From positions 1-20,874 of IMG/VR virus record IMGVR_UViG_3300035703_000455: DNA of 20,874 nucleotides. One strand, written 5' to 3'. Positions 2,131-20,059 of this stretch are shown one piece after another. Below the pieces are notes generated by a model, which was not told the DNA's origin, searched no databases, and saw only the letters and a list, made by a program, of their open reading frames with translations. This DNA is from a virus. The first letter of the stretch is position 1. The number at the start of each line of letters is the position of its first letter. A program made the position numbers and the translations under genes.

Positions 2131-2721
2131 ATGCTTTACCATCCCACTGAGCTGGTGAAGAGCCAAGACGTGATTGTGCGCGTTGGCTCTGTCGCTCTCG
2201 CCAGCGGCCGTCCCATCATCACTCAAAGCGGCGCTACGTTTACCGTTACTGGCGTGCCCGACTTGTACACTCTGCAAGCTGCCACGACGGCTTCTGTTGC
2301 CTTTAACGATGGCAACCAAGAATTCTATCTGCTTGGTGGTGGCGGTTTTGCTGATAGCGTGATTGTTACTAGCCAAGCCACTGCTTCCATCACCTCCTAC
2401 TTCCAGAAGGATGTTGATGGTGTTACATTCCTGCCCAATAGCTTTGACGAAGCTTTCCAAGTGATTAGCGCTTCGCGCTATGACAAGAACCACGAAGTGT
2501 ACGTGGAAATCAACAAGCAACTTGGCGCCACTACCAGTGGTTATTACTATGATCGAGTGGCTTTTGTTGCTTGCGTGATGAACTATAACGAGAGCTATCC
2601 TGCGGATAATCTCGTGGAATGCACGTTTGATTTGATTAGCCGTGGTCGCATTGGCATTAATCAATCGGTATTTACTGCGTCTGGCCTCATTCCGACTGCC
2701 CCCAACGGCCCTGCTGCTTGA
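2131..2721 (+). CDS. Probable major tail tube protein
   Basis: This 196-aa, beta-rich protein is probably the repeating subunit of the tail tube. The features are indirect: a 'SRYDKNHEVYVEI' strand (about 113-125), a 'YYDRVAFVACVMNY' strand (about 138-151) and an 'ECTFDLISRGRIGIN' strand near the end. Codon use is the GC-ending, CTG/CGC-rich type seen otherwise only in the capsid gene. GAGG (2119-2122) is 8 nt before the ATG, and a strong terminator follows, all consistent with a very abundant protein. Alternatives are a head decoration protein, with the tube role taken by the 14493 or 14915 gene products, which have a tube-like domain. Confidence 0.55.
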   Translation: MLYHPTELVKSQDVIVRVGSVALASGRPIITQSGATFTVTGVPDLYTLQAATTASVAFNDGNQEFYLLGGGGFADSVIVTSQATASITSYFQKDVDGVTFLPNSFDEAFQVISASRYDKNHEVYVEINKQLGATTSGYYYDRVAFVACVMNYNESYPADNLVECTFDLISRGRIGINQSVFTASGLIPTAPNGPAA

Positions 2722-2781: not shown

Positions 2782-3192
2782 GTGAACATTGCACAACTTC
2801 GGGAAGTGGTCACTGAACTACTTTCTGCGTCGCCTAATTTAATCGGCACTTATACGTTGCCCGGCAATTCAACTATTCCTGCGGTGTATGTAGTGGGAAG
2901 GCAAAGCGTGCCCAATGAATGGAAGGCTAAGGGGCTTGAAGTGGCAATGCGAGAGTTTCCCCAGTTGAATCCACGTTCTCCGCTGGGAGGCACTGTAAAG
3001 GTGAGCCAAGTGTGGGAAGTAATTCTCACGCAGTTTACGCCTAGCAGCGGCACGCTTGCCGCTGCAATGGACAGAATGGTGAGGCGGTTTCCCGACGCTA
3101 CGCCTCGATATTTTCCAGGCGATGACGTGGCTTACGAGCGTTGTCGATTTTTGATTCCCGATTTGATTCTACGTAATCTACTAGCACCATGA
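2782..3192 (+). CDS. Probable tail terminator protein (gpU-like)
   Basis: This 136-aa protein has a short N-terminal helix (IAQLREVVTELLSA), a central TVKVSQVWEVILTQF strand, then a helix (LAAAMDRMVRRFP) and a final RCRFLIPDLIL strand. This alternating layout is common in small tail-terminator proteins that cap the tube. The start is GTG 2782, chosen because GGAGAGG (2766-2772) is at the right spacing; no ATG fits. It overlaps the next gene by ATGA. The role is inferred from fold pattern and position. Confidence 0.5.
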   Translation: MNIAQLREVVTELLSASPNLIGTYTLPGNSTIPAVYVVGRQSVPNEWKAKGLEVAMREFPQLNPRSPLGGTVKVSQVWEVILTQFTPSSGTLAAAMDRMVRRFPDATPRYFPGDDVAYERCRFLIPDLILRNLLAP

Positions 3193-3641
3193 GCGCAACT
3201 ATTGTTGGCGGTACGATTATTAATGCAAAGCTTTTGGAAGCAAAGCTCGCAAAAGCTTTTGAGACGTGGGCTCGCTTTGATGCAAACGATTATTTTCGCG
3301 ATCAGTTTGTGGAAGATAAATGGTTTTATCCTGGGGAAACAGAGCGAAAGAGCGGTGAACTGGCAAGAGATCCTCGTAATATTTTTGATTTAGGCGATTT
3401 ATACAGAAGTGGTAGGGATAGTTTTAAAATCACGCAAGGCAGCGCAGATGTCACCGCGTCATGGGACTGGGACGCAAAAAACAGCTCAGGCAGGGGCTAT
3501 GCATGGTATGTTCACGAAGGACTGTCTACCAATTTGGCGCCAAGACAATGGACGGATGTATTTCAGCAGCGTGATTTATTTGATGGAAGCAGTGTGAGCA
3601 AGGAGCTAAGATCTCGGATGCGTATTGCATTGAACAGATGA
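3189..3641 (+). CDS. Neck / tail completion protein, gpZ- or HK97 gp10-like
   Basis: This 150-aa protein probably joins the tail to the head. Its key pattern is a W-F-Y-P-G-E-T-x-R-K-S-G-E segment (about 46-58), then 'DPRNIFDLGDLYRSG' (61-75), a beta-hairpin containing WDWDAK, and 'YAWYVHEG' (105-112). The 'PRNI.D.G.L..S ... W ... YA..VH.G' order is characteristic of the gpZ/gp10 minor tail proteins. Its length is normal for the family. It overlaps the genes on both sides by ATGA, so it is coupled to both. Confidence 0.65.
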   Translation: MSATIVGGTIINAKLLEAKLAKAFETWARFDANDYFRDQFVEDKWFYPGETERKSGELARDPRNIFDLGDLYRSGRDSFKITQGSADVTASWDWDAKNSSGRGYAWYVHEGLSTNLAPRQWTDVFQQRDLFDGSSVSKELRSRMRIALNR

Positions 3642-4874: not shown

Positions 4875-7800
4875 ATGGCAGCTCAAGACGCCGAATTGAA
4901 GCTTAAGGTAAGTCTTGATCTGGCCTTTTTTAGACAGCAATTAGCGGGACTTGGACAAGCTGCCGCTGGCACTCCGATGCCAGTGCAGATTAAATTTGAT
5001 AGGCGCAGTGTACAGAATGAATTAAATACTCTTGGTGCAAATATTAAACGAAGAAATTATACTCTCAATGTCAACACCAATTTAAAAGCGGAAATCGAGA
5101 ATGCATCAAAGCTTGCAAAGGCTTTGGATGAGCTTAGTCGCTCTCGAAATACTGCACAAAAATCAATCAATCAACAGCTTGGTCTTGGCGTTTTGATGCA
5201 GGGTCCGCAAAGCGGCGGATTAGGTAGTAAAGACGTTATAAAGTTGTATCGAGCCGCCGCGCAGGCAGGATTGCTTGAATATAACAAAGAAATTGCCAGG
5301 ACAAAAGCCTCCACGATAGCTGCCTTAGAAGAAGTCGGCGCCGACAGTGTGCGTGGATTGTTGAATGGATTAAACAGTGAAGACGAAAAACTTCGGGCGG
5401 CAGCTACTTATCTAGGCGAAACTTTAATAAAAACAGTCAAAAATGTTCTTGGTATTGCATCGCCTTCTCGTGAATTCAAAAAGATTGGTCAAAACGTAGG
5501 CGAAGGCTTCCAGCAGGGCATGCTGTCCTCAATGGACAAAGCTTTCGGTGCAGTAGAAGGTTTAATGCGAGCACGCATGAAAGTGCTTGATACCATTGCT
5601 CGTGGTATGTTCCGCATGGCAGGTATTGATCCTGTCGCCCTTAGGGCTGAAGCTGCTCAGCGCCGTGCATTGCCAGGAGTGAATTTCCCTGCAACAGTGC
5701 CACCACGCAACTTCCCTATTGGCCCCTCTGGAACGGGCAGGGCATTACCTCCCGGTGCGACCCCATCCGCGCTTCCCGGTACTGCATTTGGCGCTCAAAA
5801 GTATTTGCCCACGGCCCTTGGAGAAGAATTGAAGGCTATTTTGCGTGGGGCTGCATTCGCTTTTGTTGATTCCTTAAAACAACAAGTGAGAAGCGTTCGC
5901 GTTGGACTTGGCGCCACCCAGCAACCATTATTGAGCCCAAGTCGCATCGCAGGATTGCTTCCCGCAGGAGTAGGTCGCGCGCCTAGTATGTATTCAACTG
6001 GCGCCATGGGAGGAGAGACACGCGCAGAAATGATGGCACGCAGAGAGCGTGAAGCTCGTATACGTTCTGACTTGCGTGGCATGGATGTATTGGGAGGTGG
6101 TGCTGGACGCGCTCCTTCTACTTATAGCCATGCGTATCGCAGCGCACGGCCAACGAGCGCCATTGTTCCTTATGCAAGTGGAGGAGCAATTGTGCCACAG
6201 CCCTCAATGGCTGGAGGCGGCAATGTACCTCCGTCTGGAGGCGGTGGTTTTGGTGGGATGGGCGGCTTTGGCGGCTTTGGACGTGCGCTAGGAAACGTAC
6301 CCAATCTTCCCGGCACTGGCACCATTCGAGAACTCGGAAGTGAATTCGCTTTTGCGACCAAGCAAGTATTGCTATTTGGTCAGGCATATAAATTACTGGG
6401 CGTCATTCAAGCTTTCCCGGCGCAAGTGGGAGCCGCAGTTGGGCAGTTGCAAAGCTTTAGAAATACATTGAATGCAGTGACGCCTTCAGCAGAAGAAGCC
6501 CGCGCGTCCAATGAGCTGCTGCTTGGCCTGATGGAAAAGTACAACGTGCCCCTGCAATCGGCGCGTGATGGCTTCACCAAACTATATGCTTCCATGGCTC
6601 CGGCTGGTTTTAGTGGAGACGAAATTAGAGATTTGTTTACTGGCATTACAAAAGCTGCTGCCACTTTTGGCATGAGCGCAGATAAAGTTGATCGCGTGAA
6701 TTATGCCTTTGCGCAGATGGCCAGCAAAGGTCAGGTGATGAGCGAAGAACTTAAGGGGCAATTAGGTGATGTACTGCCTGGCGCGATGGCATTATTTGCG
6801 GAAGCTGCTGGATTCAAAGGGCCAAAAGCCATCCAAGATTTTTCTGCCGCATTGGAAGATGGTGCTTACAAGGGGAAGGCAATGGTTGCATTGTTGAAGA
6901 ATGTGACTGTCGTAATGAATAAGGAATTTGGTCCTGGTGCCGAAGGGGCTGCTCTTACATTCCAGGGTGTAATGAATCGCATGCAAAACTCAATGACTCT
7001 TCTTTATGAGAGCTTTGAGCCTGTTGCAGTGGGATTCTTGAATACTGTTGTTGTTCCAATGACAAATGGAATCAAACAACTTACTGATGGGCTTAATGCA
7101 TTTTTCACAGGCACTGCAGCGAAAACTGCAGGAGGTTTTGCCATTGCTCAAGAGCTTGAGCGGCTCCGCCCAGCCTTTGATGGCATTGGTCAAAATGTGC
7201 AAAAGCTAGTCCCCGTCTTTCAGCAATTCGCAAATGTTGCATTAAACGTGGCAAAAGTTTTTCTTGAAATCGCAGGGAATCCATTTGTTGGGTATTTATT
7301 GCGAGTTTACGCGGCAGTTCTTCCATTGACGCTTGCATTGCAAGTGTTGAATTTACAGGCGCTTATTCCAATGATCGCCAGTTTCGTGCGCTCTGCATAT
7401 GCTCTGACGGTTTTCACCGTTCAGTGTGCAAAAGCGGGTCAAGCGGCTGCCATTGCAAAGCTATCTTTCCAAACTGCTGGAATTACACTGAGAACATTCT
7501 TTGCTTCTACTGGTGTTGGATTGGTACTTGTCGGGATTGGATTATTGATTGAAAGATTTACTTCCATGAATCAAGCATTGGAAGATACTAGAAATAAAGC
7601 ACTTGGAGCGGCGCAGGCAATTCGCTCCATGTCTCAAACAGAGGCAAGAGCGGCAGAGCAGCAGGCTCAGACCGCTTATAAAACTATCGGCTCTGTCGCT
7701 GGGCGACAAGGCCCTCAGCAGCAAGGAGGGGACAGGCTTGTTCCAGTTAGCGAAAGAGAGCTAAAGCAACTCCAATCCCTTGGTGCAATTAGAGAACAAA

Positions 7801-9422
7801 GAGATCCCAGTGGGCAGATTTACGTAAAACGCAGTCAAGCCCTTTCTCTTGCCCAGCAAGCACAACGCATTAAATCGGAGGCTGCATTTAGACAGGAACA
7901 AATTAAATTTGAAGAAAAGCAGGCGGCAATGCCGGTGACGATTGCTCCCATTTCGGGGGCTGCGTCTGACGGGAAAGGGACAAAAGCCGCAAAAGAGAAG
8001 AAGGAAAGAGAAAGCCAAGTGCCGTTACTGCAATTGCAACTTGCAACAACTAAACAGCTCTTTGATCTTGAGCGAGATATTCTTGCCGCAAGACTTGGCG
8101 GCAATGATTTAGAAGTGATTCGACTAGAGGGACTTCGCCAGCAATTGCAAATCAACGAGGAAATTGCAAAAATTAATCTTGAAAAAGACATTCCAGGACA
8201 AGAAAAGGCATTGCAAATTGAAAGACTAAGAAAGCAATCGGAAGGGGAAAGACTTCGTACTGCTTTTGAAATAGAACAAAAAATTCAAGAAGTGTATTCG
8301 GGGATTAGTGATGCGGTGACAAAAATTGCCCAAGATTCAGCAAATGAACTTGCTGACAAGCAATCATACGAAAAACTGGTATCGGAAGGGGTGTTGCCAA
8401 GTATCGCGAAGATTACAATAGAAACCAACAGGCAGTTCGCTGTTGAAGCTCAGAAACTTTCCGTCTTAGAAGCGCAAATAAAGGATCAAATTGCGCTTCT
8501 TTCGGCCAAGGAAAAGATAAGCGATGAAGACCAAAAACAGTTGAACATTTTAAAAGAAAGGCTCGGTATCATACAAGGAGGGCAAACTGATTTGCCGGGG
8601 TTGGCCCAGGAAGCAATGCAAGCACGCATCAGTGGCGAACAGCCACTTTCGGGCAGGGTTGTGGCGCTGGAAGAAATTGAATCTATGCGTAGGGAATTAG
8701 AAAAGCTTACATCTTGGGAATACCAAGCAGTACAAGGTGCGCAAGCAGTTGGATCAGCCCTTGCTGAAGCAATGACGACTGGTGTAGCTGGCATGATTTC
8801 TGGCACCGCAACTGCCAAGGAAGTGTTTGCCAGCTTCCTGCAAAGCGTTGGTCAAGCGCTTTCTCAAGCCGCCTCGCAAATGATTGCCACTTACATTGCT
8901 ATTGGCATCGCAAAAATGTTTGCCGGTCTTAGCGGAGGAGGCGGGAATCCAGCAGGCAGCGGAGGAGGTATTTCGGACAGCCTTCCTGGAATACGTCAAT
9001 ACGCAGGAGGCATGGGAGGAGGTGGAGCGCCAGGCTCTATGCCGTTCGCGCCACCTGCATTTGCTAATGGCGGCATTGTTACAGGCCCCACGCTTAGCCT
9101 CATTGGAGAAGGACGTTATAACGAAGCCGTTGTGCCCCTTCCAAATGGTCGCGCCATTCCAGTGCAAATCAACGGCGAGCGTTCTGCTCGTGATTTAATG
9201 GGGCGCAATGCACCAGGCATGGCTAATGCTGCTCCGCTTACGCTTAAGTTTGAAAGTACAAAGATTAATGGCGTAGAGTATGTAAGCCGTGAGCAATTAG
9301 AGCTTGCAATGGCTGAAACACGCCGTGCTTCAATTGCAGGCGGTGCTACTAGGGGAATGAATATGGCTCTTGATAAGATACAACAAAGTCCATCCACTCG
9401 CTCTCGCATTGGCATCCGTTAA
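4875..9422 (+). CDS. Tail tape measure protein
   Basis: This 1515-aa protein sets tail length and is probably delivered through the tube. N-terminal helical segments (about 50-105) lead to a GIASPSREFKKIGQNVGEGF motif near 193-212. A Gly-rich linker (about 447-474) follows. The conserved tape-measure N-domain (about 500-700) includes 'QMASKGQVMSEELKGQLGD' and 'LPGAMALF', the TIGR02675-type signature. Hydrophobic stretches lie at about 802-840, 878-895 and 1325-1345. Long coiled coils occupy about 920-1250. The C-terminus has 'FANGGIVTGPTLSLIGEGRY', typical of tape measures. At about 0.15 nm per residue the tail could be near 225 nm, if not processed. Its TAA overlaps the next ATG (TAATG). Confidence 0.95.
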   Translation: MAAQDAELKLKVSLDLAFFRQQLAGLGQAAAGTPMPVQIKFDRRSVQNELNTLGANIKRRNYTLNVNTNLKAEIENASKLAKALDELSRSRNTAQKSINQQLGLGVLMQGPQSGGLGSKDVIKLYRAAAQAGLLEYNKEIARTKASTIAALEEVGADSVRGLLNGLNSEDEKLRAAATYLGETLIKTVKNVLGIASPSREFKKIGQNVGEGFQQGMLSSMDKAFGAVEGLMRARMKVLDTIARGMFRMAGIDPVALRAEAAQRRALPGVNFPATVPPRNFPIGPSGTGRALPPGATPSALPGTAFGAQKYLPTALGEELKAILRGAAFAFVDSLKQQVRSVRVGLGATQQPLLSPSRIAGLLPAGVGRAPSMYSTGAMGGETRAEMMARREREARIRSDLRGMDVLGGGAGRAPSTYSHAYRSARPTSAIVPYASGGAIVPQPSMAGGGNVPPSGGGGFGGMGGFGGFGRALGNVPNLPGTGTIRELGSEFAFATKQVLLFGQAYKLLGVIQAFPAQVGAAVGQLQSFRNTLNAVTPSAEEARASNELLLGLMEKYNVPLQSARDGFTKLYASMAPAGFSGDEIRDLFTGITKAAATFGMSADKVDRVNYAFAQMASKGQVMSEELKGQLGDVLPGAMALFAEAAGFKGPKAIQDFSAALEDGAYKGKAMVALLKNVTVVMNKEFGPGAEGAALTFQGVMNRMQNSMTLLYESFEPVAVGFLNTVVVPMTNGIKQLTDGLNAFFTGTAAKTAGGFAIAQELERLRPAFDGIGQNVQKLVPVFQQFANVALNVAKVFLEIAGNPFVGYLLRVYAAVLPLTLALQVLNLQALIPMIASFVRSAYALTVFTVQCAKAGQAAAIAKLSFQTAGITLRTFFASTGVGLVLVGIGLLIERFTSMNQALEDTRNKALGAAQAIRSMSQTEARAAEQQAQTAYKTIGSVAGRQGPQQQGGDRLVPVSERELKQLQSLGAIREQRDPSGQIYVKRSQALSLAQQAQRIKSEAAFRQEQIKFEEKQAAMPVTIAPISGAASDGKGTKAAKEKKERESQVPLLQLQLATTKQLFDLERDILAARLGGNDLEVIRLEGLRQQLQINEEIAKINLEKDIPGQEKALQIERLRKQSEGERLRTAFEIEQKIQEVYSGISDAVTKIAQDSANELADKQSYEKLVSEGVLPSIAKITIETNRQFAVEAQKLSVLEAQIKDQIALLSAKEKISDEDQKQLNILKERLGIIQGGQTDLPGLAQEAMQARISGEQPLSGRVVALEEIESMRRELEKLTSWEYQAVQGAQAVGSALAEAMTTGVAGMISGTATAKEVFASFLQSVGQALSQAASQMIATYIAIGIAKMFAGLSGGGGNPAGSGGGISDSLPGIRQYAGGMGGGGAPGSMPFAPPAFANGGIVTGPTLSLIGEGRYNEAVVPLPNGRAIPVQINGERSARDLMGRNAPGMANAAPLTLKFESTKINGVEYVSREQLELAMAETRRASIAGGATRGMNMALDKIQQSPSTRSRIGIR

Positions 9423-9805
9423 TGGCTGATTTTCCTTCTATTCGCCCTGCATCGAGAACCTACTCAGCGGGGCAATTCCCTCTTAAAACTTATCGGGCTT
9501 TATCAGGCGCTACGGTCAAGCGCGTATTTGGCAATAAAGCTTATGGTCATTCCATTGAGCTTCAATTTACAAACATCACTGATGCATTGGCCAAGCAAAT
9601 CATTGACCATTACTATGGACAGAATGGCAGCGTAGACAGATTTGCTCTGCCTGCTGAAATGTTTTCTGGAATGAACAGCGCCTTTGGCGATGAGCTAAGA
9701 GCGCCAGACGGTATTTCCTGGGAATATGCAGAGCCTCCTGCAATTGAGGCCGTGTTCAATGGGATAAGCAATGTTACAGTGCGATTGATTGGTGAGTTGT
9801 CATGA
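9422..9805 (+). CDS. Minor tail protein at tape-measure/tip junction (gpM-like position)
   Basis: This 127-aa protein is the first of four coupled tail-tip genes. It has an 'RTYSAGQFPLKTYRALSG' N-terminus, a 'HSIELQFTNITDALAKQII' strand-helix, a Gly/Asn turn (YYGQNGSVDRF) and a final strand 'SNVTVRLIGELS'. This layout matches small minor tail proteins directly after the tape measure in cyanophage-like genomes as I remember them. Its place equals lambda gpM. Its start overlaps the tape measure stop and its end overlaps the next ATG (ATGA). Confidence 0.65.
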   Translation: MADFPSIRPASRTYSAGQFPLKTYRALSGATVKRVFGNKAYGHSIELQFTNITDALAKQIIDHYYGQNGSVDRFALPAEMFSGMNSAFGDELRAPDGISWEYAEPPAIEAVFNGISNVTVRLIGELS

Positions 9806-10343: not shown

Positions 10344-10730
10344 ATGAATGATCTCATTGGCTTGCAATATAAATGGGGGGCTTCTCCCGACGATGGCTTG
10401 GGTTTTACAGACTGCTTCCAATTGTTTTGTGCAATTAGACGAAGGCTTGGCCTTTATGATTATGCTGCTGATTTTGCTTGGGCCTATGAGAACTATCAAG
10501 AAAATGCTCTTCCTCCATTGAGAATGGCTCGTTGGCTTTTGCAAAATGCTGACAGAACACTTAGTCCATCGTCTGGTTGCGTGGCAATGCTTGGACAGCG
10601 CAGCGCATTGGGGACAATAGCAAACAAAAGCATTATTTGCATTGCTCCAAGAGGACGTAGTGTTAGCATTGCTTTATCGTCAAAGACGACAAGAGAATTC
10701 AACTGGTTTAAGCCAAAGGCCGATGCGTAA
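10344..10730 (+). CDS. Degenerate NlpC/P60-like tail assembly protein (gpK-like position)
   Basis: This 128-aa protein has the start of an NlpC/P60 cysteine peptidase fold: 'LIGLQYKWGASPDDGLGF' then T-D-C (Cys24) at the head of a helix, as in peptidoglycan hydrolases of tail tips. The usual G-D-V strand after the helices is seen as 'SGCVAMLGQR' (about 77-86), but the H-V-G motif with the catalytic histidine is absent, and the whole protein has no histidine. It is therefore probably inactive, or it works as a structural tip factor. Order after gpL-like and before gpJ-like matches lambda gpK. It overlaps the next gene by 8 nt (ATGCGTAA). Confidence 0.6.
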   Translation: MNDLIGLQYKWGASPDDGLGFTDCFQLFCAIRRRLGLYDYAADFAWAYENYQENALPPLRMARWLLQNADRTLSPSSGCVAMLGQRSALGTIANKSIICIAPRGRSVSIALSSKTTREFNWFKPKADA

Positions 10731-13700
10731 ATTACTGCCCTACGAGCACCAATTAATTGAAGCACTTGGCATTACGGAACAAGAATACTGGCAGTTTTAT
10801 CTTGCACAATTAAATTACAGAGACGAAAAAGTAGGCACTATTTTTGATGTACGAAATACAGGCGCAGAAGTTGCAATTGTCTTGAGTATTGTTGGCGTAC
10901 TTGCGCAGGTAGGTGCTGCTTTATTGGCGCCCAAGCCAGAGCTTCCTGAGCAACAAAAAGTTGGCAAGCAAAGTCGCAATGCCATCTTTGGCCCACGTTA
11001 TGGCTTCAATTCTTTTCAGGAAGTGGCACGCTATGGCGATCCTGTGAATTTGGTTTATACCAATAAAGAGGACGATAACAAAAGCGCTGGGGGGCTAAGA
11101 GTTAATACGTCCTTGGTCTGGTCGGCTGTACAAAGCTTTGGCAACAAGCAATTCATTCAAATGCTTGGCGTTGTCGGAGCTGGAGACATTGAAGCTTATG
11201 AATATGGCTTCACTGCATTTGGCCAGGCCCCATTGGAGGATTTTCCTGCTCAAAAATACTGGCTCTATGGCAACAATGCCAGCGGTCCGCTGAAGTTTGG
11301 TGACTTTCAGCTTCCGCCTGGCAACGCAGAGCAAGACCCAAGCAAGGATGGGCAAGGCGCACAAGATTACACTTATCGAGCAAACAAAGGCGGAGCCATC
11401 ATCGTCGATGGTTATAGCCAAGCATTTTCTCCTTCTAGCAATAACACTTTAGGCCTTTACGACGTGGTGCCTATTAACGTGCTCGTATTAGAGCGCGATG
11501 AAAACGGCCAGTTGACTAAAGATAATGGAGACATTCTTGGTCGATCAAAAGATGACCTTGGTACTCGCATTTCTTCCGAAGATAGAGGCATATATTGGCC
11601 GCAATCATGGCAAGGCAGCGACAATCGCCCAATGTTTCCAGAAGGCGCTTCTTTTACATTGCGCTTTGTTGAAACTGATGACAGGATTGATGATGAAGTG
11701 GAACGTGCTGCGCAGGACTATCGCATTGCCTTGATCAGCACAATGACAGCATCTAGCGTTTACAAGCTTGGTGCCGCAAAATTTAAGCTTACTAATGCCA
11801 TTGAAACGAGGCAGGGAAGAGAAGGAGAATTCACTTTTCAATGTGTAGAAAGTGGCATTCTTTGCGAAGAAGACTATGGAACAACGAGCTATTTAGAGAA
11901 CGAAGTAGAAACAGAAGAGCTTTTGCAGCAAAAGCGAGAAGAGCTTCAAGCTTTAGACGATGAAAGAAAAGGATATGGCAATATTTACATTGGTGAAGGA
12001 GCTGATGTATTTCTTGCATTGCAAGCTGAATTTGATCAAGTGGAGGATGAAATTGAAACACTCACTTCAATTATTAAGGGTACCATTGATGACGATTCCC
12101 TTTATGACGCAGCCAAAAATAGCGGACAGTTCACTGATCTAATTAAACAGATTGATGGTATCGAGGATACGATTAAAGCCAAGAGAGATTTGATTGAAGA
12201 AAAGAATGATGAGATTGCAGATCTCTTAGACGACAAACCGCAGGGCTATAAAGGGCAGATTTCTAGCAAGAAGCAAAGGAAGAGAGCTTTGCAGAATGAA
12301 GTGAGAAATGCCAAAAACGAATTGAAGGATCTATATGCCAAGCTTTCGAGAAGGGCTACGTTGCGTGGCTTGTATGACGGCAATCCGCGTTCTGATGCGG
12401 CAGATGAGCGCAAGCGCCTGAAGCGCAGGAAGAACAGGCTCAAGACGCGCCTCGGAGAGCTTGCGTCAAATCTTATTATTGACACCAATGCCATGGCTGC
12501 GAGAGATGCGGCATGGCAAACGCGGTACGATGAAGTGCAGGAAGTCATTAATGAATGCCAGTTTATCTTGCGCGATCCAGAACGATTTAATGACTATTTC
12601 AATGTTAAATGCCTAGCAAAGATTGATGAACTTACTTACACCACTGTTACAAAGTGTGACATCGTTGATTTTGCATTGAAAGCAAGAGTTTATAAGCGCA
12701 TTTCTGGGCGCCAAAGCAAATATGGAGACAACAAAGAGCAAAAGCATAGAGACGCAGATAATGGTCTCCGCATACGCACAGCAATGTTTTGGTTGCTTTA
12801 CAAGAAAGAGTCTGATGATATTTATCAGCGCGTGCCAACTGTTTTTGCCATTCGTAGAGGCGTGGAAGTGGACAACTTTGTCAGTATGCGTTTTGTATCA
12901 AATGAGGAGCGAACGAAATGGTCATTCAAGATGGAACCAATTATCGACTTGTCGGCAGAAATTCGCACTTACTTTGGCGAGCGAGAAGTGGACGTAGCCT
13001 ATCTTGACACTCGCGCATACAAGAATAGCGAGAAGAATAAGAATATTCCCATTGGCAATGGCCGAGCGGGATATGTTGCCATTCACGGTCGAGTGTTGAA
13101 AACCGAAAGGCTCCTTCCTCCGCTCAATAATAATCCAGGGTTTGTAGATGAATGGGGCGTGTTTTCAATGCGTTCTGACACGCAAATTGCCTTCTCTTTC
13201 GATGGTGGCCCTGAAATTGCATTGGCGGCTGTTACGGAGCAGCAAATAGAAACTTTCCCACGCGATCTTTACCAAGGACTTTCTCTCATTGGCTTCAATG
13301 CTTACAGCGGAAAAGGCATTCAAGATTTGCGCACGCTGAGCGCTTATGTGACCAAAGGCAAGAAAGTTAGGCGGTTTGCTCCGAATCAAGATGGCGACTA
13401 TGTAGTAGACGTAAATAGTGTGCCAGTCAGTTCAACGAGTTACGCTCCTGAAATCTTCTTGGACAGCGTGCTCGATAAGGAGAATGGCATTGGAGCATAC
13501 GCTGATATTAATGGCATCGACCTAGAAAGCCTTGGCAAGGCCGTGAAGTTTTGCAAGGCAAATGGTTATTTCATGGATGGCATCATTGCCGATCCTCAGT
13601 CATGGCGCGAATTTTGGACAACAGTGGCACCGTTTTCATTGCTGGAATTTACCAAGATTGGCGGCAAAGAATCATTGGCACCTGCGGTGCCCTATGACGA

Positions 13701-14457
13701 GAATGGCTTAGTTGATAGCCGCATTAATATTTCTGCTTTGTTCAATCAAGGGAACATTCTCGAAGGGAGCTACAAGGAAGAATTTATTGACTATGGCGAC
13801 AACACTGAAGATCTTCTTGCCACCATCGTCTATCGAGATTCAACAGACGGGGATCCATTTCCTGGCAATACAAGCTTCACCATTCGCTTGGCGAATGCAG
13901 ATGAAGCCTCTTGCATCAGGCAAACGTTTGATTTATCTGCGTATGTCTCCAGCAGGAATCAGGCAATTAATTATGGCATGTTGTTATGTTCACAGCGGCG
14001 ATGGTCTAAGCGTGCCGTGGAATTTAAAACATTCCCAACTGAAAGCCCAGTGGCGCCTGGATCCTATATTTATGTGCAAACAGACCAAAACCAATGGGAC
14101 AACCTCACTGCAGGCAAAATTGGAGCTGGCGGAAGCCTTGACATTCCATTGACAGAAGGCATTGTCAATGCCACGTACGATGCTTTGCTTTACAAGGGCG
14201 GCCAAGGCGTCGTCAAAAAACCTGGCATCACCATTGTGAACAACACTGCTCCAGAACTTGCCGCTTTTGAAGGATGGCTAGTAGTGTTTGGCAATCAAAT
14301 TACAAACAAGCGCGTGTTTCGCGTGACGGAAATCACAATGGAGGAAGAAGGGGAAGTGACCATCAGGGCCATTGAACATCCTTGCGACGAAAGAGACGGC
14401 ACCACTTATTCTCACATCGTACAGTTTGACACCACTTTGTATCAAATTGATGATTAA
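10723..14457 (+). CDS. Tail tip / central hub host-specificity protein (gpJ-like)
   Basis: This 1244-aa protein probably closes the tube and carries the fibres. I start at ATG 10723, which overlaps the stop of the previous gene (ATGCGTAA); a TTG at 10642 would add 27 residues inside the upstream gene and is unlikely. A hydrophobic segment (residues 50-72, ending LLAPKP) is like the gpI/gpJ hydrophobic hairpins. A beta-rich part (about 80-390) follows. A charged coiled coil of about 210 residues (395-605, starting at EETEELLQQKREELQALDDE) interrupts the protein. Then come more beta domains with 'PERFNDYFNVKC'. The C-terminal half carries 'QRRWSKRAVEF' and 'PVAPGSYIYV', as in hub proteins. Confidence 0.8.
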   Translation: MRKLLPYEHQLIEALGITEQEYWQFYLAQLNYRDEKVGTIFDVRNTGAEVAIVLSIVGVLAQVGAALLAPKPELPEQQKVGKQSRNAIFGPRYGFNSFQEVARYGDPVNLVYTNKEDDNKSAGGLRVNTSLVWSAVQSFGNKQFIQMLGVVGAGDIEAYEYGFTAFGQAPLEDFPAQKYWLYGNNASGPLKFGDFQLPPGNAEQDPSKDGQGAQDYTYRANKGGAIIVDGYSQAFSPSSNNTLGLYDVVPINVLVLERDENGQLTKDNGDILGRSKDDLGTRISSEDRGIYWPQSWQGSDNRPMFPEGASFTLRFVETDDRIDDEVERAAQDYRIALISTMTASSVYKLGAAKFKLTNAIETRQGREGEFTFQCVESGILCEEDYGTTSYLENEVETEELLQQKREELQALDDERKGYGNIYIGEGADVFLALQAEFDQVEDEIETLTSIIKGTIDDDSLYDAAKNSGQFTDLIKQIDGIEDTIKAKRDLIEEKNDEIADLLDDKPQGYKGQISSKKQRKRALQNEVRNAKNELKDLYAKLSRRATLRGLYDGNPRSDAADERKRLKRRKNRLKTRLGELASNLIIDTNAMAARDAAWQTRYDEVQEVINECQFILRDPERFNDYFNVKCLAKIDELTYTTVTKCDIVDFALKARVYKRISGRQSKYGDNKEQKHRDADNGLRIRTAMFWLLYKKESDDIYQRVPTVFAIRRGVEVDNFVSMRFVSNEERTKWSFKMEPIIDLSAEIRTYFGEREVDVAYLDTRAYKNSEKNKNIPIGNGRAGYVAIHGRVLKTERLLPPLNNNPGFVDEWGVFSMRSDTQIAFSFDGGPEIALAAVTEQQIETFPRDLYQGLSLIGFNAYSGKGIQDLRTLSAYVTKGKKVRRFAPNQDGDYVVDVNSVPVSSTSYAPEIFLDSVLDKENGIGAYADINGIDLESLGKAVKFCKANGYFMDGIIADPQSWREFWTTVAPFSLLEFTKIGGKESLAPAVPYDENGLVDSRINISALFNQGNILEGSYKEEFIDYGDNTEDLLATIVYRDSTDGDPFPGNTSFTIRLANADEASCIRQTFDLSAYVSSRNQAINYGMLLCSQRRWSKRAVEFKTFPTESPVAPGSYIYVQTDQNQWDNLTAGKIGAGGSLDIPLTEGIVNATYDALLYKGGQGVVKKPGITIVNNTAPELAAFEGWLVVFGNQITNKRVFRVTEITMEEEGEVTIRAIEHPCDERDGTTYSHIVQFDTTLYQIDD

Positions 14458-14492: not shown

Positions 14493-14912
14493 ATGCCATT
14501 TTATACTGGACGCACTGGCAAGTTGCGACTTAGCGACAATGAAGTGGCGAAAGTTAGAGACTGGGCCTTGGATGTATCCATGGATCCCATTGAAACTACT
14601 GCTCTTGGTGACACCGCACAGTCTTATACGGCTGGCATGTCTAGCGCTACGGGGAATGCCACGGTTTCGTACTATACAGGCGCTGCAACAGGCGTAGTGC
14701 AGCTCCTGCAGAAGATTGTTACGACTGGCGCTATCACTGACGATAATCAAGTGGAGGTGACGTTTGAAGTGGGCGCCGATCAATACTTTAAGGCAAATGC
14801 TTTCATTACCAACGCAAGCATTTCATCGTCTACAAACGAGCTAACTAGCGTATCGTTTCAGTTTACAGTGAACGGAGCATTAACTACAGTAGAAACTACT
14901 GGCACGGTTTAG
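14493..14912 (+). CDS. Tail-tube-like virion protein
   Basis: This 139-aa, beta-rich protein has a 'MPFYTGRTGKLRL' start, then V-R-D-W-A-L-D-V (about 21-28), 'IETTALGDTAQSYTAG' (33-48) and a strand-rich C-terminus. This pattern, with an 'ETT.LGD' motif between two strands, is typical of a tail-tube-like family found in cyanophage-type genomes. Its neighbour at 14915 carries the same domain. Being after the hub gene, it may form part of the distal tail or the fibre base, or even be the true tube. The SD is weak. Confidence 0.6.
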   Translation: MPFYTGRTGKLRLSDNEVAKVRDWALDVSMDPIETTALGDTAQSYTAGMSSATGNATVSYYTGAATGVVQLLQKIVTTGAITDDNQVEVTFEVGADQYFKANAFITNASISSSTNELTSVSFQFTVNGALTTVETTGTV

Positions 14913-14914
14913 TT

Positions 14915-15817
14915 ATGACATTCTTTGTTGGGCATACTGGCATGGTGCGCCTACGGCGCAGAAGCTTAGAAGATATTGACCTGCCAATTAATGTGGACGC
15001 GAGCGAAATTAATACTACGCTCAATAGGCTTTATTTTGAAGGGAGTGAAGACAATATTCTGACGGGAGATCAGCTCTTTATTTCTACGGAAGACAGCAGA
15101 GGGCTTGCGTTTTTTTCCGCAGAAGCATGGCCCACGTCTTTGCAGGTGCAGAAATATTTACGCGCCTATGTCAATGTAAACGCCCTTGGTGGACTTCGAT
15201 TTTACGATACATTTGTCGATGCAGTTAATAACAATAGAGAGAATGAACTAGTGCTGTCGGCAGATTTTAGTGCGCCCATTGCTGCCACCATTGTCGTCAA
15301 AGATAGTCGTTACAACACCCTTGGTTCTGTCATTTCTTATGACATCAATACTGATCGAGCGGCAGTAGAGACAACTAGCCTTTCTGATAAATTCAGGCAG
15401 CAATACTCGGCTGGCTTAATCAGTGGCAGCGGAAGCATTGAATGCCTGTTCAGCTATCAAACAGTTGCAGATGAAGAGGCGCCTTTGTTTTTGTTGCAGA
15501 CAATTCAACGCCTGGATGTTGGCAGCGAGCTGAGCATGCTTTTGTCATTGTCTCCGCCAGAAGGAGAACGTAGTAATTATTCTGCATCGTCAAACGAAGT
15601 GTTCTATGAAGTGCAGGCGGTAATCACGCGTGCTGGCGTAACAGTTCGCTCTGACGCACTCATTTCATGCTCTATTGACTTTCTGACTACTGGCGAATTC
15701 AGAGTGAAAGTGGGCGTACCAAACGAATACATCCTGAAGGAAGACTTCGATCTCATTGAAATGGAAGAAAACCAAGAAACTGGCCTTGGTTTCTTACTGC
15801 AAGAAATCACTGATTAA
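14915..15817 (+). CDS. Two-domain virion protein with C-terminal tube-like domain
   Basis: This 300-aa protein begins 'MTFFVGHTGMVRLRR', similar to the start of its neighbour. The N-terminal half (1-120) has its own fold ('LRAYVNVNALGGLRFYDTF'). The C-terminal half (about 125-275) repeats the tube-like pattern: V-I-S-Y-D-I-N, 'VETTSLSDKF', then Y-S-A-G-L-I-S-G-S-G and 'GVTVRSDALISCSIDFLTTG'. It looks like a paralogue of the 14493 gene with an added N-terminal domain, and is probably a structural protein between tail tip and fibre. It starts 2 nt after the previous stop, so the two are likely co-translated. Confidence 0.6.
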   Translation: MTFFVGHTGMVRLRRRSLEDIDLPINVDASEINTTLNRLYFEGSEDNILTGDQLFISTEDSRGLAFFSAEAWPTSLQVQKYLRAYVNVNALGGLRFYDTFVDAVNNNRENELVLSADFSAPIAATIVVKDSRYNTLGSVISYDINTDRAAVETTSLSDKFRQQYSAGLISGSGSIECLFSYQTVADEEAPLFLLQTIQRLDVGSELSMLLSLSPPEGERSNYSASSNEVFYEVQAVITRAGVTVRSDALISCSIDFLTTGEFRVKVGVPNEYILKEDFDLIEMEENQETGLGFLLQEITD

Positions 15818-15892: not shown

Positions 15893-18800
15893 ATGGCTGA
15901 CCAAAGAATTTCGGAACTTTTTGAAATTAGCAGCAGTGGCGTTGCGTCTAATGACGTGCTTCCCATTGTTGATACTAATGTCAGCCAGACCAAGAAGATT
16001 ACGGCCAAAAGTTTAGCAGAAGCTGGATTTCGCCTTGCTGATGATTCAACATTAAGTGGATCCAAACTTACTGCCACTGGCGTTACCAGCGATAAGCTCG
16101 CTGATGGTGCGGTTACAACAGCTAAAATTGCTGCCACTGGTGTTACTTCCGCAAAGATTGCCGATGGTGCAGTAGGAACAACACAGCTCGCTGCAACTGG
16201 TGTGACCACGGCAAAGATTGAAGATGGCGCTGTCACTTTTGCCAAGATTCAAGACATTGCCACAAACACGCTGCTTGGTCGTTCAACGGCTGGTTCTGGC
16301 GATGTAGAAAGTATTTCCTGCACTGCTGCAGGACGCGCTGTGATTGGCGCTGCTGACGCGGCTGCTCAACGCACTGCATTGGGCTTGGGCAATATTTCTC
16401 TTGCCACTGGCACATGGGCCAACGGTGCCACAGTGAGCGGCACCAACACTGGCGATCAGACCATCACGCTTTCTGGCGATGTCACTGGCACTGGCACTTC
16501 TGGCATCGCAGTGACAATTGCTACGGGCGCCGTTAGCACAGCGAAGATTGCTGACAGCGGCGTTACCACTGCAAAAATTGAAGATTCTGCCATCACTGGA
16601 GCAAAGATGGCAGATAATTCTGCGGCCATTGTTGCCACCACTGCTCCTTCTGCGAATGGTGATTATATTGGCCAACAATATTTAGACTCTGTTACAAATA
16701 TTGAATATACATGGACTGGAGAAGAATGGAGGCAGCAAGCGGGCCTCACTTCTCTCGCGGTGTCCCCTGATGCATTGTTCACTTATAGCACTGATTTGAC
16801 GGTAGCTTATACGGCTACTATTTCGGGGGCATTGAATACACAACCAGCAGCATGTTTCTTTGCAGGACCAGCGAGCGGATCTGATGCAGCTCCAGCATTT
16901 AGAGCAATTGTCACCACTGATCTGCCAACGGCTACTAATTCTACGCTTGGCATTGCACGTCCAGGAAGTGGTTTAACAATTAATGCAAACGGCATTATTG
17001 ACCATAGCAATACCACAACAAGCGGCTCTTATTACAAAGTAAATGTAGACACAAATGGTCACGTTACTGGCGGAAATACTGTTCTTGTTGCAGGAGACAT
17101 TCCAGCTTTAGACGCAAGCAAAATCACTACTGGCACTTTTGGCTCCACATTTATTGGCGACGATGCTATTGATGGAACCAAAATTGGAGACCGCGTGGTT
17201 TGCAACTTTGGCGAAACACGCCCAGCCGCTGGCGATTTTGTTGGGCAATTTTTCTATGATCCTATCAACAAAGACACTTATGTTTGGGACTCTAACGTTT
17301 GGCAAGAAATTTCTGTTACTGCTGGCGCTATTGTTTTAGCTGGTCTTTATAACGCAGGCACAAATAAAATTGTTTCACTAACTGGTGCTGGCGCTGCAGT
17401 TTCTGGTCTTACTGTTTCAGGCACTATTCCTGCTGCCAACAGTGGCAACTCTGGATATTATTTCCTTGTGAGCGCTAGCGGCACTGGCTCTGGCAACGCT
17501 CCTAACGTCACGCTTATTCCGCCTGATCTCATCGTTTCTGATGGCAGTGCATGGTATGAAGTGGATGTAAGCAGCTCCTATGTAAGTCAAAATGCTGCTT
17601 CTATTTCCTTTGCTCCTTCTGGGGATGTAAGCGCTACCACCGTCCAAGCCGCGATCCTGGAGGTGAGTAGTGAATGCAGAGATGCCACAAACATTAGCAG
17701 CGGCACGCTGGCTATCGCACGAGGCGGCACTGGTATTAATTCTTACACAAAGGGCGATCTGCTTGTTGGTTCCGGAACCACTCTTGTTAAGCTGCCAGTT
17801 GGCACGAACACCCACGTATTGGTAGCCGATTCGACGGCTGGTCCTGGCGTAAAATGGGCAGCAGCGACGAATGGCACGGTCACTACTGTCAGTGGCGTGT
17901 CGCCGTTGAGCGTTAGTAATCCAACCACCACTCCAACAATTTCCGTGGCGGCTGCTTCTACAAGCGCTGCTGGTGTTGTTCAGCTTACCAATAGCACGAG
18001 CACGACTAGTAGCACACTTGCCGCCACTGCTACGGCAGTAAAGAGTGCTTACGACCTTGCCAATGCTGCGTTGCCCAAGTCTGGCGGCACAATGACTGGC
18101 AACTTGCAGCTTAATAGTTCAAGCAGCGTTGTATTCCAAGGCACGTCTTTTAATACCACGCTTAATATTGTCAATCCTTCTGCTGCTCGTACAATTTCTC
18201 TTCCCAATGTGGGCGGAACTATTGTTACAACTAGTGGGACAAGCGTTGTAAGCAATGCAATGGTTGCAAGCGGAATAGATGGAAGAAAGGTTAGCTTTAC
18301 ATCCCAGAATAAATTACAATTGGATGGTGGGTTTAAAATCGGCAATACTGTATTTAACGGTGATGACGTAGCAATTGGCGTTAGCGCATTGGGTGGCGAC
18401 CAGCCAGGTTCTTCTCGAATTGCGATTGGATCCAGTGCACTGTACAACAGCAATGGCCTAGGTGATATTGCAATTGGTGGCAACGCTTTGTATAGTTGGG
18501 TCGTTGGATCCGGCGTCGATACTTCACATGTTGCAATTGGCTACACATCACTCTCATCTCTTCCATCCGGCGATGCAAACGTTGCCATTGGTGGATACAC
18601 ACTTTGGCAACTTACTAATGGCAGTTATAATACAGTCATTGGAGACAATGCGGAAAACTCAAAAACGTCTGGAAGCAATTGCATAACTATTGGGGCAAAT
18701 GCATCTGGCAGCACGGTAACAGTTAGCAACGAAATCACATTAGGCAATTCAAGCATTACAAGCCTGCGCTGTGCAGTGCAAACTATTTCTTCACTGTCCG

Positions 18801-19129
18801 ATGCTCGCGATAAAACTGACATCGACGATCTTGGTCTTGGTATTCACTTCATTGACAAGCTACGGCCAGTTAGTTTCACTTGGCAAACGCGAGAAGGCAT
18901 TGACACAAGAGATGGCACAAGGGATTGCGGCTTTTTGGCTCAAGATCTTCTCGAAGCACAGTCAGACGACGATGCAGAATTCTTAAATCTTGTATTGCAA
19001 GCCAATCCTGATAGACTTGAAGCCTCCTATGGGCGACTCATGCCAGTGGTTGTACAAGCTCTTAAAGACTTGTCTTCAGAGCTAAAAACAATCAAGCAAG
19101 AACTTGCTCAATTAAAAGGAGAAGCTTGA
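15893..19129 (+). CDS. Long tail fibre protein with S74 chaperone domain
   Basis: This 1078-aa protein is probably the main receptor-binding fibre. After a short N-terminal anchor (about 1-55) come decapeptide repeats (60-119 and 210-239). Then follow two related 'Y.GQ.Y.D ... Y.W....W' units (about 257-285 and 445-475), an ARGGTG..YTKGDLL repeat (about 607-625), and a phage tail-fibre repeat of PF03406 type (about 690-735, GVVQL then AYDLANAAL). Next is a YadA-like head (about 826-950) with VAIG/IAIG repeats. The C-terminus is a Peptidase_S74 intramolecular chaperone from S-D-A-R-D-K. The catalytic pair would be Ser969 and Lys974, spaced as in endosialidase. It ends in a short coiled coil (1056-1078). 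The chaperone should self-cleave near Ser969. Confidence 0.9.
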   Translation: MADQRISELFEISSSGVASNDVLPIVDTNVSQTKKITAKSLAEAGFRLADDSTLSGSKLTATGVTSDKLADGAVTTAKIAATGVTSAKIADGAVGTTQLAATGVTTAKIEDGAVTFAKIQDIATNTLLGRSTAGSGDVESISCTAAGRAVIGAADAAAQRTALGLGNISLATGTWANGATVSGTNTGDQTITLSGDVTGTGTSGIAVTIATGAVSTAKIADSGVTTAKIEDSAITGAKMADNSAAIVATTAPSANGDYIGQQYLDSVTNIEYTWTGEEWRQQAGLTSLAVSPDALFTYSTDLTVAYTATISGALNTQPAACFFAGPASGSDAAPAFRAIVTTDLPTATNSTLGIARPGSGLTINANGIIDHSNTTTSGSYYKVNVDTNGHVTGGNTVLVAGDIPALDASKITTGTFGSTFIGDDAIDGTKIGDRVVCNFGETRPAAGDFVGQFFYDPINKDTYVWDSNVWQEISVTAGAIVLAGLYNAGTNKIVSLTGAGAAVSGLTVSGTIPAANSGNSGYYFLVSASGTGSGNAPNVTLIPPDLIVSDGSAWYEVDVSSSYVSQNAASISFAPSGDVSATTVQAAILEVSSECRDATNISSGTLAIARGGTGINSYTKGDLLVGSGTTLVKLPVGTNTHVLVADSTAGPGVKWAAATNGTVTTVSGVSPLSVSNPTTTPTISVAAASTSAAGVVQLTNSTSTTSSTLAATATAVKSAYDLANAALPKSGGTMTGNLQLNSSSSVVFQGTSFNTTLNIVNPSAARTISLPNVGGTIVTTSGTSVVSNAMVASGIDGRKVSFTSQNKLQLDGGFKIGNTVFNGDDVAIGVSALGGDQPGSSRIAIGSSALYNSNGLGDIAIGGNALYSWVVGSGVDTSHVAIGYTSLSSLPSGDANVAIGGYTLWQLTNGSYNTVIGDNAENSKTSGSNCITIGANASGSTVTVSNEITLGNSSITSLRCAVQTISSLSDARDKTDIDDLGLGIHFIDKLRPVSFTWQTREGIDTRDGTRDCGFLAQDLLEAQSDDDAEFLNLVLQANPDRLEASYGRLMPVVVQALKDLSSELKTIKQELAQLKGEA
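16070..16249 (+). repeat. Six decapeptide repeats in fibre gene
   Basis: Residues 60-119 are six 10-residue units of type [AT]-x-[TD]-G-[AV]-[VT]-x-x-x-[KQ]-[IL], for example AATGVTSAKI and ADGAVGTTQL. The DNA copies are diverged, so the repeat is old or selected at protein level. This type of repeat is common in fibre stalks. Confidence 0.8.
16520..16609 (+). repeat. Three further decapeptide repeats in fibre gene
   Basis: Residues 210-239 read ATGAVSTAKI, ADSGVTTAKI and EDSAITGAKM, the same unit as the block at 16070. A stretch of about 90 residues with the 'NTGDQTITLSGDVTGTG' motif, common in phage fibres, separates the two blocks. Confidence 0.75.
18368..18750 (+). repeat. YadA-like head repeats in fibre gene
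   Basis: The fibre repeats short V/I-A-I-G units: VAIGVSAL, IAIGSSAL, IAIGGNAL, VAIGYTSL, VAIGGYTL, and less exact TVIG and ITIG copies. This is the pattern of left-handed beta-roll heads of trimeric adhesins, which occur in many tail fibres. It supports a trimeric fibre. Confidence 0.75.
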
Positions 19130-19810: not shown

Positions 19811-20059
19811 ATGGCACAGCGTATTATTGGCAGTGAAAGCTATGAAGGCGTGTTTGTTCGAGGTGATGCCAGTGGCAGCGCTGTGCCTATCACTGGCTCA
19901 TTGCGCATTCCTGAGCACGATTATATTGCTTTAGGATATGACGGCACTAAGCTTTCTTCCATTGCATATAAACTTGGTGGTGCAAGCGGAGAGACCGTCG
20001 CTTCATTGACGCTTACTTACGATGGAAGTGATAATTTAATTAGCGTAGCTAAAGCATAA
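19811..20059 (+). CDS. Small fibre-associated virion protein (82 aa)
   Basis: This small beta-rich protein sits between two fibre-region genes. The start is 'MAQRIIGSESYEGVFVRGD', followed by 'SGSAVPITGSLRIPEHDYIA' and a tail of strands with G-Y-D-G-T-K-L and YDGSDNLISVAKA. The latter pattern is frequent in small proteins next to phage fibre genes and may be a decoration or attachment protein. There is no SD; a -10-like hexamer precedes it. The function is not known. Confidence 0.6.
   Translation: MAQRIIGSESYEGVFVRGDASGSAVPITGSLRIPEHDYIALGYDGTKLSSIAYKLGGASGETVASLTLTYDGSDNLISVAKA

Follow-up and report, generated by a model that had tools for sequence, protein, structure and literature searches.

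Two adjacent genes behind the tail hub gene of a lambda-like siphophage, designated here q139 and q300, encode products that sequence comparisons and structure predictions support well as distant paralogues with the tail-tube fold. Together with their neighbours they form a well-supported conserved cassette, hub-q139-q300-fibre. Our best explanation, to which we give about an even chance, is that both are tube-fold proteins of the tail tip and not of the tail shaft, probably ring-forming, with an inserted domain that points outward and helps to dock the fibre.

The stretch of DNA analysed (the window) is the virus record of 20,874 bases. In its major capsid protein it shares 87% identity with Synechococcus phage S-CBS4, so a cyanobacterial host is likely.

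Tail module and predicted main tube protein

The window follows the lambda-like siphophage order: capsid, neck, tube gene, chaperones, tape measure, gpM-, gpL- and gpK-like genes, hub, q139, q300 and fibre, the neck and chaperone genes and those of gpL and gpK type being named tentatively, from their position. The tape measure (4875-9422) is followed by a minor tail protein gene (9422-9805, + strand; phrog_15525 at 2.3e-23), which from its position we take to be gpM-like, i.e. to encode the usual ring between tube and hub; the slot directly after the tape measure, the lambda gpM or Dit place, is filled by this gene and not by q139 or q300. The lambda J-like hub ORF (10642-14457, + strand; phrog_31 at 4e-9, phrog_27845 at 1.4e-11) overlaps, as listed, the gpK-like gene by 89 bases (10642-10730), and its start is likely the ATG at 10723, judging from relatives, many of which have about 1240 amino acids. 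Because the match to the J profile ends at position 841 of 1565, the hub seems to be devoid of the central-fibre extension of lambda J. Next come q139 (14493-14912, + strand), q300 (14915-15817, + strand) and a tail fibre gene with an S74 chaperone domain (15893-19129, + strand), whose N-terminus, MADQRISEL..LPIVD..TKK, is presumed to be the anchor. Further downstream an 82-amino-acid protein (19811-20059) is related, at 54% identity, to a protein of phage S-H1 (L001 15977-16183) whose gene stands directly before an annotated tail fibre gene. The 3189-3641 product has a relative encoded after, not before, the chaperone-like genes in L012 (571-1095), L022 (993-1517), L089 (1053-1565) and L196 (5204-5722), L012 and L022 being the same contig.

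The usual main-tube slot, upstream of the tape measure, holds the gene at 2131-2721 (+ strand), and the pair stands behind the hub. The 2131-2721 product had no confident match among the family profiles; compared with tail tube proteins, its structure model (pLDDT 72, pTM 0.69) gave a Foldseek match at 1.4e-4 and Z scores of up to 10.8. From this model it is predicted to be the main tail tube protein, separate from q139 and q300.

The gene was searched for in 42 records, and frequencies among them are not representative since q139, q300 or the 2131-2721 gene served to find the loci from which the records were chosen, named phages being added. It was found in 36 records, 24 of which also have q139 and q300 and 11 neither; the remaining one (G033) is partial, only the first 48 bases of the q139 gene being matched, at the record end. 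The 11 pair-less records comprise the complete S-CBS4 (W01), contigs of 68.5, 74.3 and 70.4 kb, and seven records of 33-44 kb that could be fragments; two of these seven, G028 and G034, have an S-CBS4-like tip. In S-CBS4 and its kin a different cassette stands in place of this tip cassette. No match to the 2131-2721 gene was obtained in W02-W05, the four named phages whose main tubes are of the q139 type.

Paralogy of q139 and q300 and the domain inserted in q300

Among the PHROG profiles q139 matched major tail protein families at 3.7e-9 (phrog_1407) and 6.3e-8, and 32 of 35 q139 family members matched phrog_1407 (E up to 0.01). Pfam tail-tube models matched q139 below their cut-offs only, and PDB sequences gave no match. 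Relatives of q139 include the main tail proteins of S-H1, MED4-184, CRP-811 and DSL-LC06, for three of which the annotation reads tail tube or main tail protein. Sequence homology and the tube fold are common to q139, phrog_1407, phrog_10528 and these four proteins, whose genes have no insert and precede the tape measure (in S-H1, its expected place), whereas q139 lies behind the hub. In S-H1 two adjacent q139-type genes occupy the main tube place (L001 19582-19998 and 20001-20423), so a tandem pair exists there too; Cyanophage MED4-117 showed two match places as well.

The preliminary description of this DNA proposed that the two proteins share an opening and a further block, the latter repeated near residue 140 of the second protein. 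Both ORFs (139 and 300 amino acids) are real, and the motifs were found where expected. Both proteins have the opening [FY].G.TG..RL from residue 4 onward, and it recurs in one of 3216 other distinct ORFs; [IV]ETT[AS]L, at residue 33 of q139 and 151 of q300, recurs in none of them, nor does the ordered block, searched with a slightly relaxed pattern, which begins at residues 24 and 142, respectively. The last element had been written Y[ST]AG...SG: Y[ST]AG is present in both, but the ending has to be corrected to four residues followed by TG (q139) or SG (q300). In q139 the block (WALD...IETTAL...YTAG) covers residues 24-54 (14562-14654, + strand), corresponding, by the topology of the q300 model, to strand 2 and the strand 2-3 loop.

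BLASTP aligned residues 16-128 of q139 with 134-260 of q300 (E 9e-4), and the profile-profile alignment (Hhalign) proposed in the preliminary description gave a P of 1.2e-4, though with a probability of only 55. With the q139-family HMM the window q300 scored 23.7 bits and 51 distinct q300 proteins 11.7-33.3 bits, all above the best of 1020 shuffles (10.1 bits) and the best of 3566 other ORFs (7.9 bits), even if the lowest of them (L086, 11.7 bits) barely exceeds the best shuffle. When whole records were searched with the q139 profile, the tube region of q300 was reported alone in three of the 26 q300 records (6.6e-9, 1.2e-8 and 3.0e-8) and not reported in the other 23. A 12-column matrix of the opening gave 3.1 for the window q300 (family range -1.7 to 12.0) and at most -3.0 over 2330 other N-termini.

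The preliminary description regarded the N-terminal half of q300 as novel. Its first 14 residues (14915-14956), MTFFVGHTG.VRL, match the opening of q139 and correspond to tube strand 1, so that this half is better read, from sequence alignments and the structure model, as an insertion of about 118 residues after strand 1. The inserted domain takes up residues ~15-133 (14957-15313, boundaries estimated), between strands 1 and 2, and provides the extra domain that one copy had been suggested to have. It is followed by the remaining tube fold, residues ~134-268 (15314-15718) with the ETT/YSAG block at 142-173, and by a C-terminal tail, YILKED...LLQE, residues ~269-300 (15719-15814), of low model confidence; all four segments are on the + strand. 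The ten best structural rows start at model residues 5-7 and end at 267-270, yet no more than 89-124 residues are aligned in them, and in the profile alignment q139 columns from about 16 pair with q300 residues from about 134. These spans together with the matching opening indicate one tube fold interrupted after strand 1, the position of the gap being taken from the sequence alignments and not from the output of the structural tool. A single tube domain was recognised in q300, not the two of a T5-type chain.

The predicted structure of q300 is moderate (pLDDT 63, pTM 0.50). Of the 50 best rows in its structural comparison 48 are titled as phage tails, tail-like particles or Hcp (Z up to 9.7), and two, 'SPR' and MrkH, have no plain tail title; the roseophage R4C tube aligned with Z 9.3 and rmsd 3.8 over 110 residues, 17% identical. 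Foldseek of the model against the PDB gave nothing below 0.001 (best 1.4e-2), which may be because the insert splits the fold and the model is moderate. Only marginal hits were obtained among viral models, such as one at 8.7e-4 (TMq 0.25) to a 'baseplate wedge initiator' of a cyanomyophage, and these were not used. By sequence, weak matches to phrog_1407 were obtained for 23 of 38 q300 family members (E up to 0.1, the best being 3.3e-4); the window q300 had no match in Pfam or PHROG, and q300, including types B and C described below, had none in the phages collection. A match to a capsid protein among PDB sequences, at 0.5, was taken as chance, and the q300 alignment, scanned over bacterial and archaeal genomes, gave 66 pattern stretches, none of them confirmed. 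A resemblance of the insert to a domain of the downstream 194-amino-acid protein was also considered and gained no support from the comparison.

Three types of q300 were distinguished. Type A proteins (75) have total lengths of 282, 291, 300, 301 or 336 residues. Type B (L254 and relatives) has another insert, of 196-222 residues, and lacks the C-terminal tail. In type C (L255 and relatives) this tail is different, and q139 is itself interrupted at the equivalent site, by an insert of 105-123 residues in 11 of the 12 lengths listed and of 83 in one. The q300 inserts of types A and C are homologous (E 8e-16), that of type B shows at best a weak similarity to type C (P 0.0013, probability 18), and the insert of type C q139 had no match to the q300 inserts of types A, B and C by profile comparison. 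As the inserts vary in length and kind at one loop, the insertion site has been used more than once. The loop between strands 1 and 2 in the lambda tube touches the exterior Ig domain, and that between strands 2 and 3 in such tubes is folded onto the neighbouring ring, as described in excerpts of PMC8718954; by the topology of the q300 model, the shared ETT[AS]L...Y[ST]AG block would sit in this ring-stacking loop.

The preliminary description also suggested a duplication of a tube-like gene. The paralogy and the tube fold hold, but a recent duplication does not agree with the tree, built from 58 of 65 tube domains, in which the 25 q300 domains of types A, B and C form one branch (100/99) and q139 is mixed with main tail proteins of other phages; judged from this tree, the split of q139 and q300 predates the three types. 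Neither a single origin of q139 (p-AU 0.31) nor one origin of q139 and q300 apart from five named main tail proteins (p-AU 0.23) was rejected.

Cassette order, co-divergence and association with the fibre

The position behind the hub, which had been called unusual, was confirmed but is not a one-off, since the loci come from 124 distinct IMG/VR contigs. The 132 loci were fetched by similarity to q139 or q300, so that the counts describe gene order and not frequency. Where the locus was long enough to tell, q300 directly follows q139 in 128 of 129 cases, the exception (L294) being apparently broken by frameshifts. The hub lies upstream of q139 in 128 of 129 loci, with L262 starting too close to tell, and the fibre gene comes next in 106 of 109 (exceptions L279, L282 and L294). 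A relative of the gpM-like gene was seen between hub and q139 in L254 (5085-5510), L090 (2821-3189) and L093 (5089-5466).

Over 21 genomes the distances of q139, q300, hub and the gpM-like gene were correlated at 0.75-0.89, with none of 999 permutations as high (q139-q300 0.89, q139-gpM-like 0.89, q300-gpM-like 0.88, q139-hub 0.77). Correlations of these genes with the main tube gene in the same genomes were 0.22-0.35 (reached by 33 to 77 of 999 permutations), 0.28 for q139 or q300. After removal of the type B and C genomes, 19 were left, in which q139-q300 (0.79) and the pair with the gpM-like gene (0.81 and 0.80) still exceeded the values for the main tube (0.55 for q139, 0.54 for q300); the contrast between hub (0.59 and 0.54, respectively) and main tube vanishes in this set.

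For 38 of the 42 records a search was made with a profile of the fibre N-terminus, built from fibres encoded beside q300; strong matches (6.4e-23 or better) came from all 22 records with type A or C q300 and from none of the other 16. There was no match in the type B record, where the fibre has another N-terminus, or in the four named phages. Among the 11 records devoid of q300 this N-terminus was absent from nine and weak in two, G028 (1.2e-4) and G034 (1.0e-5), which have a distant form of it; it is therefore not always dependent on q300. The association may reflect docking and fits equally well with co-inheritance of neighbouring genes.

Possible role of the pair and related systems

For the tip role proposed above the following arrangement can be envisaged. 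The proteins would assemble as one or two tip rings of six subunits, homomeric or mixed, and stack on or around the gpM-like ring and the hub via the conserved strand 2-3 loop. The domain inserted in q300 would face outward and help to hold the fibre encoded just downstream, and the pair might thereby do the job of the central-fibre portion that lambda J has and the hub here apparently lacks. Ring formation, placement and fibre docking are all inferred; the explanation is backed by the pair-less phages, which have another tip cassette, and by the separate predicted main tube. A more specific version, which we regard as distinctly unlikely, assumes a mixed ring of three q139 and three q300 subunits, a split counterpart of the T5 double-tube protein, that would convert six-fold into three-fold symmetry at the tip and present exactly three outward domains, each binding one trimeric fibre.

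Rings without any relation to the fibre, serving as tube starter or spacer between the main tube and the hub in the manner of T4 gp48 and gp54 or of the centre piece in contractile-phage baseplates, would explain why the block of the stacking loop is kept in both proteins and why their divergence follows that of the gpM-like ring gene so strongly (0.89 and 0.88), and a tube-fold ring with an added domain is known, gp114 of 7-7-1 (from the portion of PMC12796354 available). We consider this possible but on the whole unlikely, as the usual gpM-like ring gene is also present, the pair adjoins the fibre gene, and the types of insert and C-terminal tail change with the fibre N-terminus. Helpers in the assembly of tip or fibre, left outside the finished virion, would suit a pair placed between hub and fibre and known here from genes alone. 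The tube fold is structural, the insert and the conserved stacking block suggest lasting assembly, and no chaperone family was matched in profile searches, so only a small chance is left to this idea.

Two further alternatives concern the shaft itself. Were q139 the true main tube, its gene displaced behind the hub, the 2131-2721 product would have to be something else; q139 does match PHROG main tail families and has main tail proteins as relatives, whose usual place was checked in four phages, and the 2131-2721 product has no confident family match. We find this very improbable, because that product is itself a predicted tube protein whose gene precedes those of the chaperones and the tape measure, because this gene occurs without q139 in S-CBS4 and 10 other records, and because q139 tracks the tip genes and not the 2131-2721 gene over 21 genomes. 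Nor does a remnant of an old main tube gene, since replaced by the 2131-2721 gene, seem credible to us: q139-type genes are indeed the main tube in W02-W05, which lack 2131-2721, but the ORFs are intact and strongly conserved, the pairing of q139 and q300 is strict and their divergence is coupled.

Several known systems resemble the proposed tip proteins in part. In the baseplate of Milano, chain 8fqc_U1 has the tube fold with added domains, at the distal end of a contractile tail. T4 gp48 and gp54 have the tube fold, also at the distal end of a contractile tail, and lambda gpM is a ring protein near the hub, encoded before the hub. Excerpts of PMC8718954 describe T4 gp48 and gp54 as forming rings. 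The baseplate centre piece gp114 of 7-7-1 resembles q300 in combining a distal tube fold with added domains, whereas its tail is contractile and the addition is C-terminal (residues 128-398), between tube and hub, and not after strand 1, according to the available part of PMC12796354. T5 pb6 has two paralogous tube domains, as do q139 and q300, which are possibly used together in a similar way; in T5 they form one chain present in three copies per ring, whereas here there are two genes in the tip module (parts of PMC8718954 and PMC13243795). The Dit of roseophage R4C forms a ring near the hub with an outward-facing insertion domain, as proposed for q300, whereas it is encoded before the hub and the window has a separate gpM-like gene (PMC10276861, in part). 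Domain 2 of the YSD1 main tail protein is an extra domain within the tube fold, as in q300, but it is inserted between helix 1 and strand 4 of a main tube protein (PMC8718954, same excerpts).

The cyanobacterial phages Mic1 (Mic1_27 and Mic1_26) and S-LBS1 (A24 and A26) also have additional minor tail genes a short way behind the hub; these genes are gpM-like and not q139/q300-like, the two Mic1 genes being judged so by eye only. As possible holders of the pair these phages were dismissed, none of the 19 proteins tested giving a profile match. The gpM-like genes lie at L297 16020-17749 (Mic1) and L298 16928-18361 (S-LBS1), and two S-LBS1 proteins encoded behind the hub match the 9422-9805 product of the window (2e-18 and 5e-18). 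Cyanobacterial phages may more widely tend to have genes of ring type behind the hub. Tube-fold paralogues in this place were not found described in the part of the literature searched.

The way in which side fibres are attached to the tail of a siphophage can be difficult to establish; in the LSH1 study a search for the side fibre attachment site failed (from the accessible part of PMC13243795). The conserved and exchangeable tube-fold pair between hub and fibre offers a concrete, testable attachment candidate. If the reading of three plus three subunits were true, the loop between strands 1 and 2 would serve phages generally as a docking site, in which domains are swapped to change fibres. 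The pair suggests that tail-tube genes have been put to another use in a phage whose own main tube is retained.
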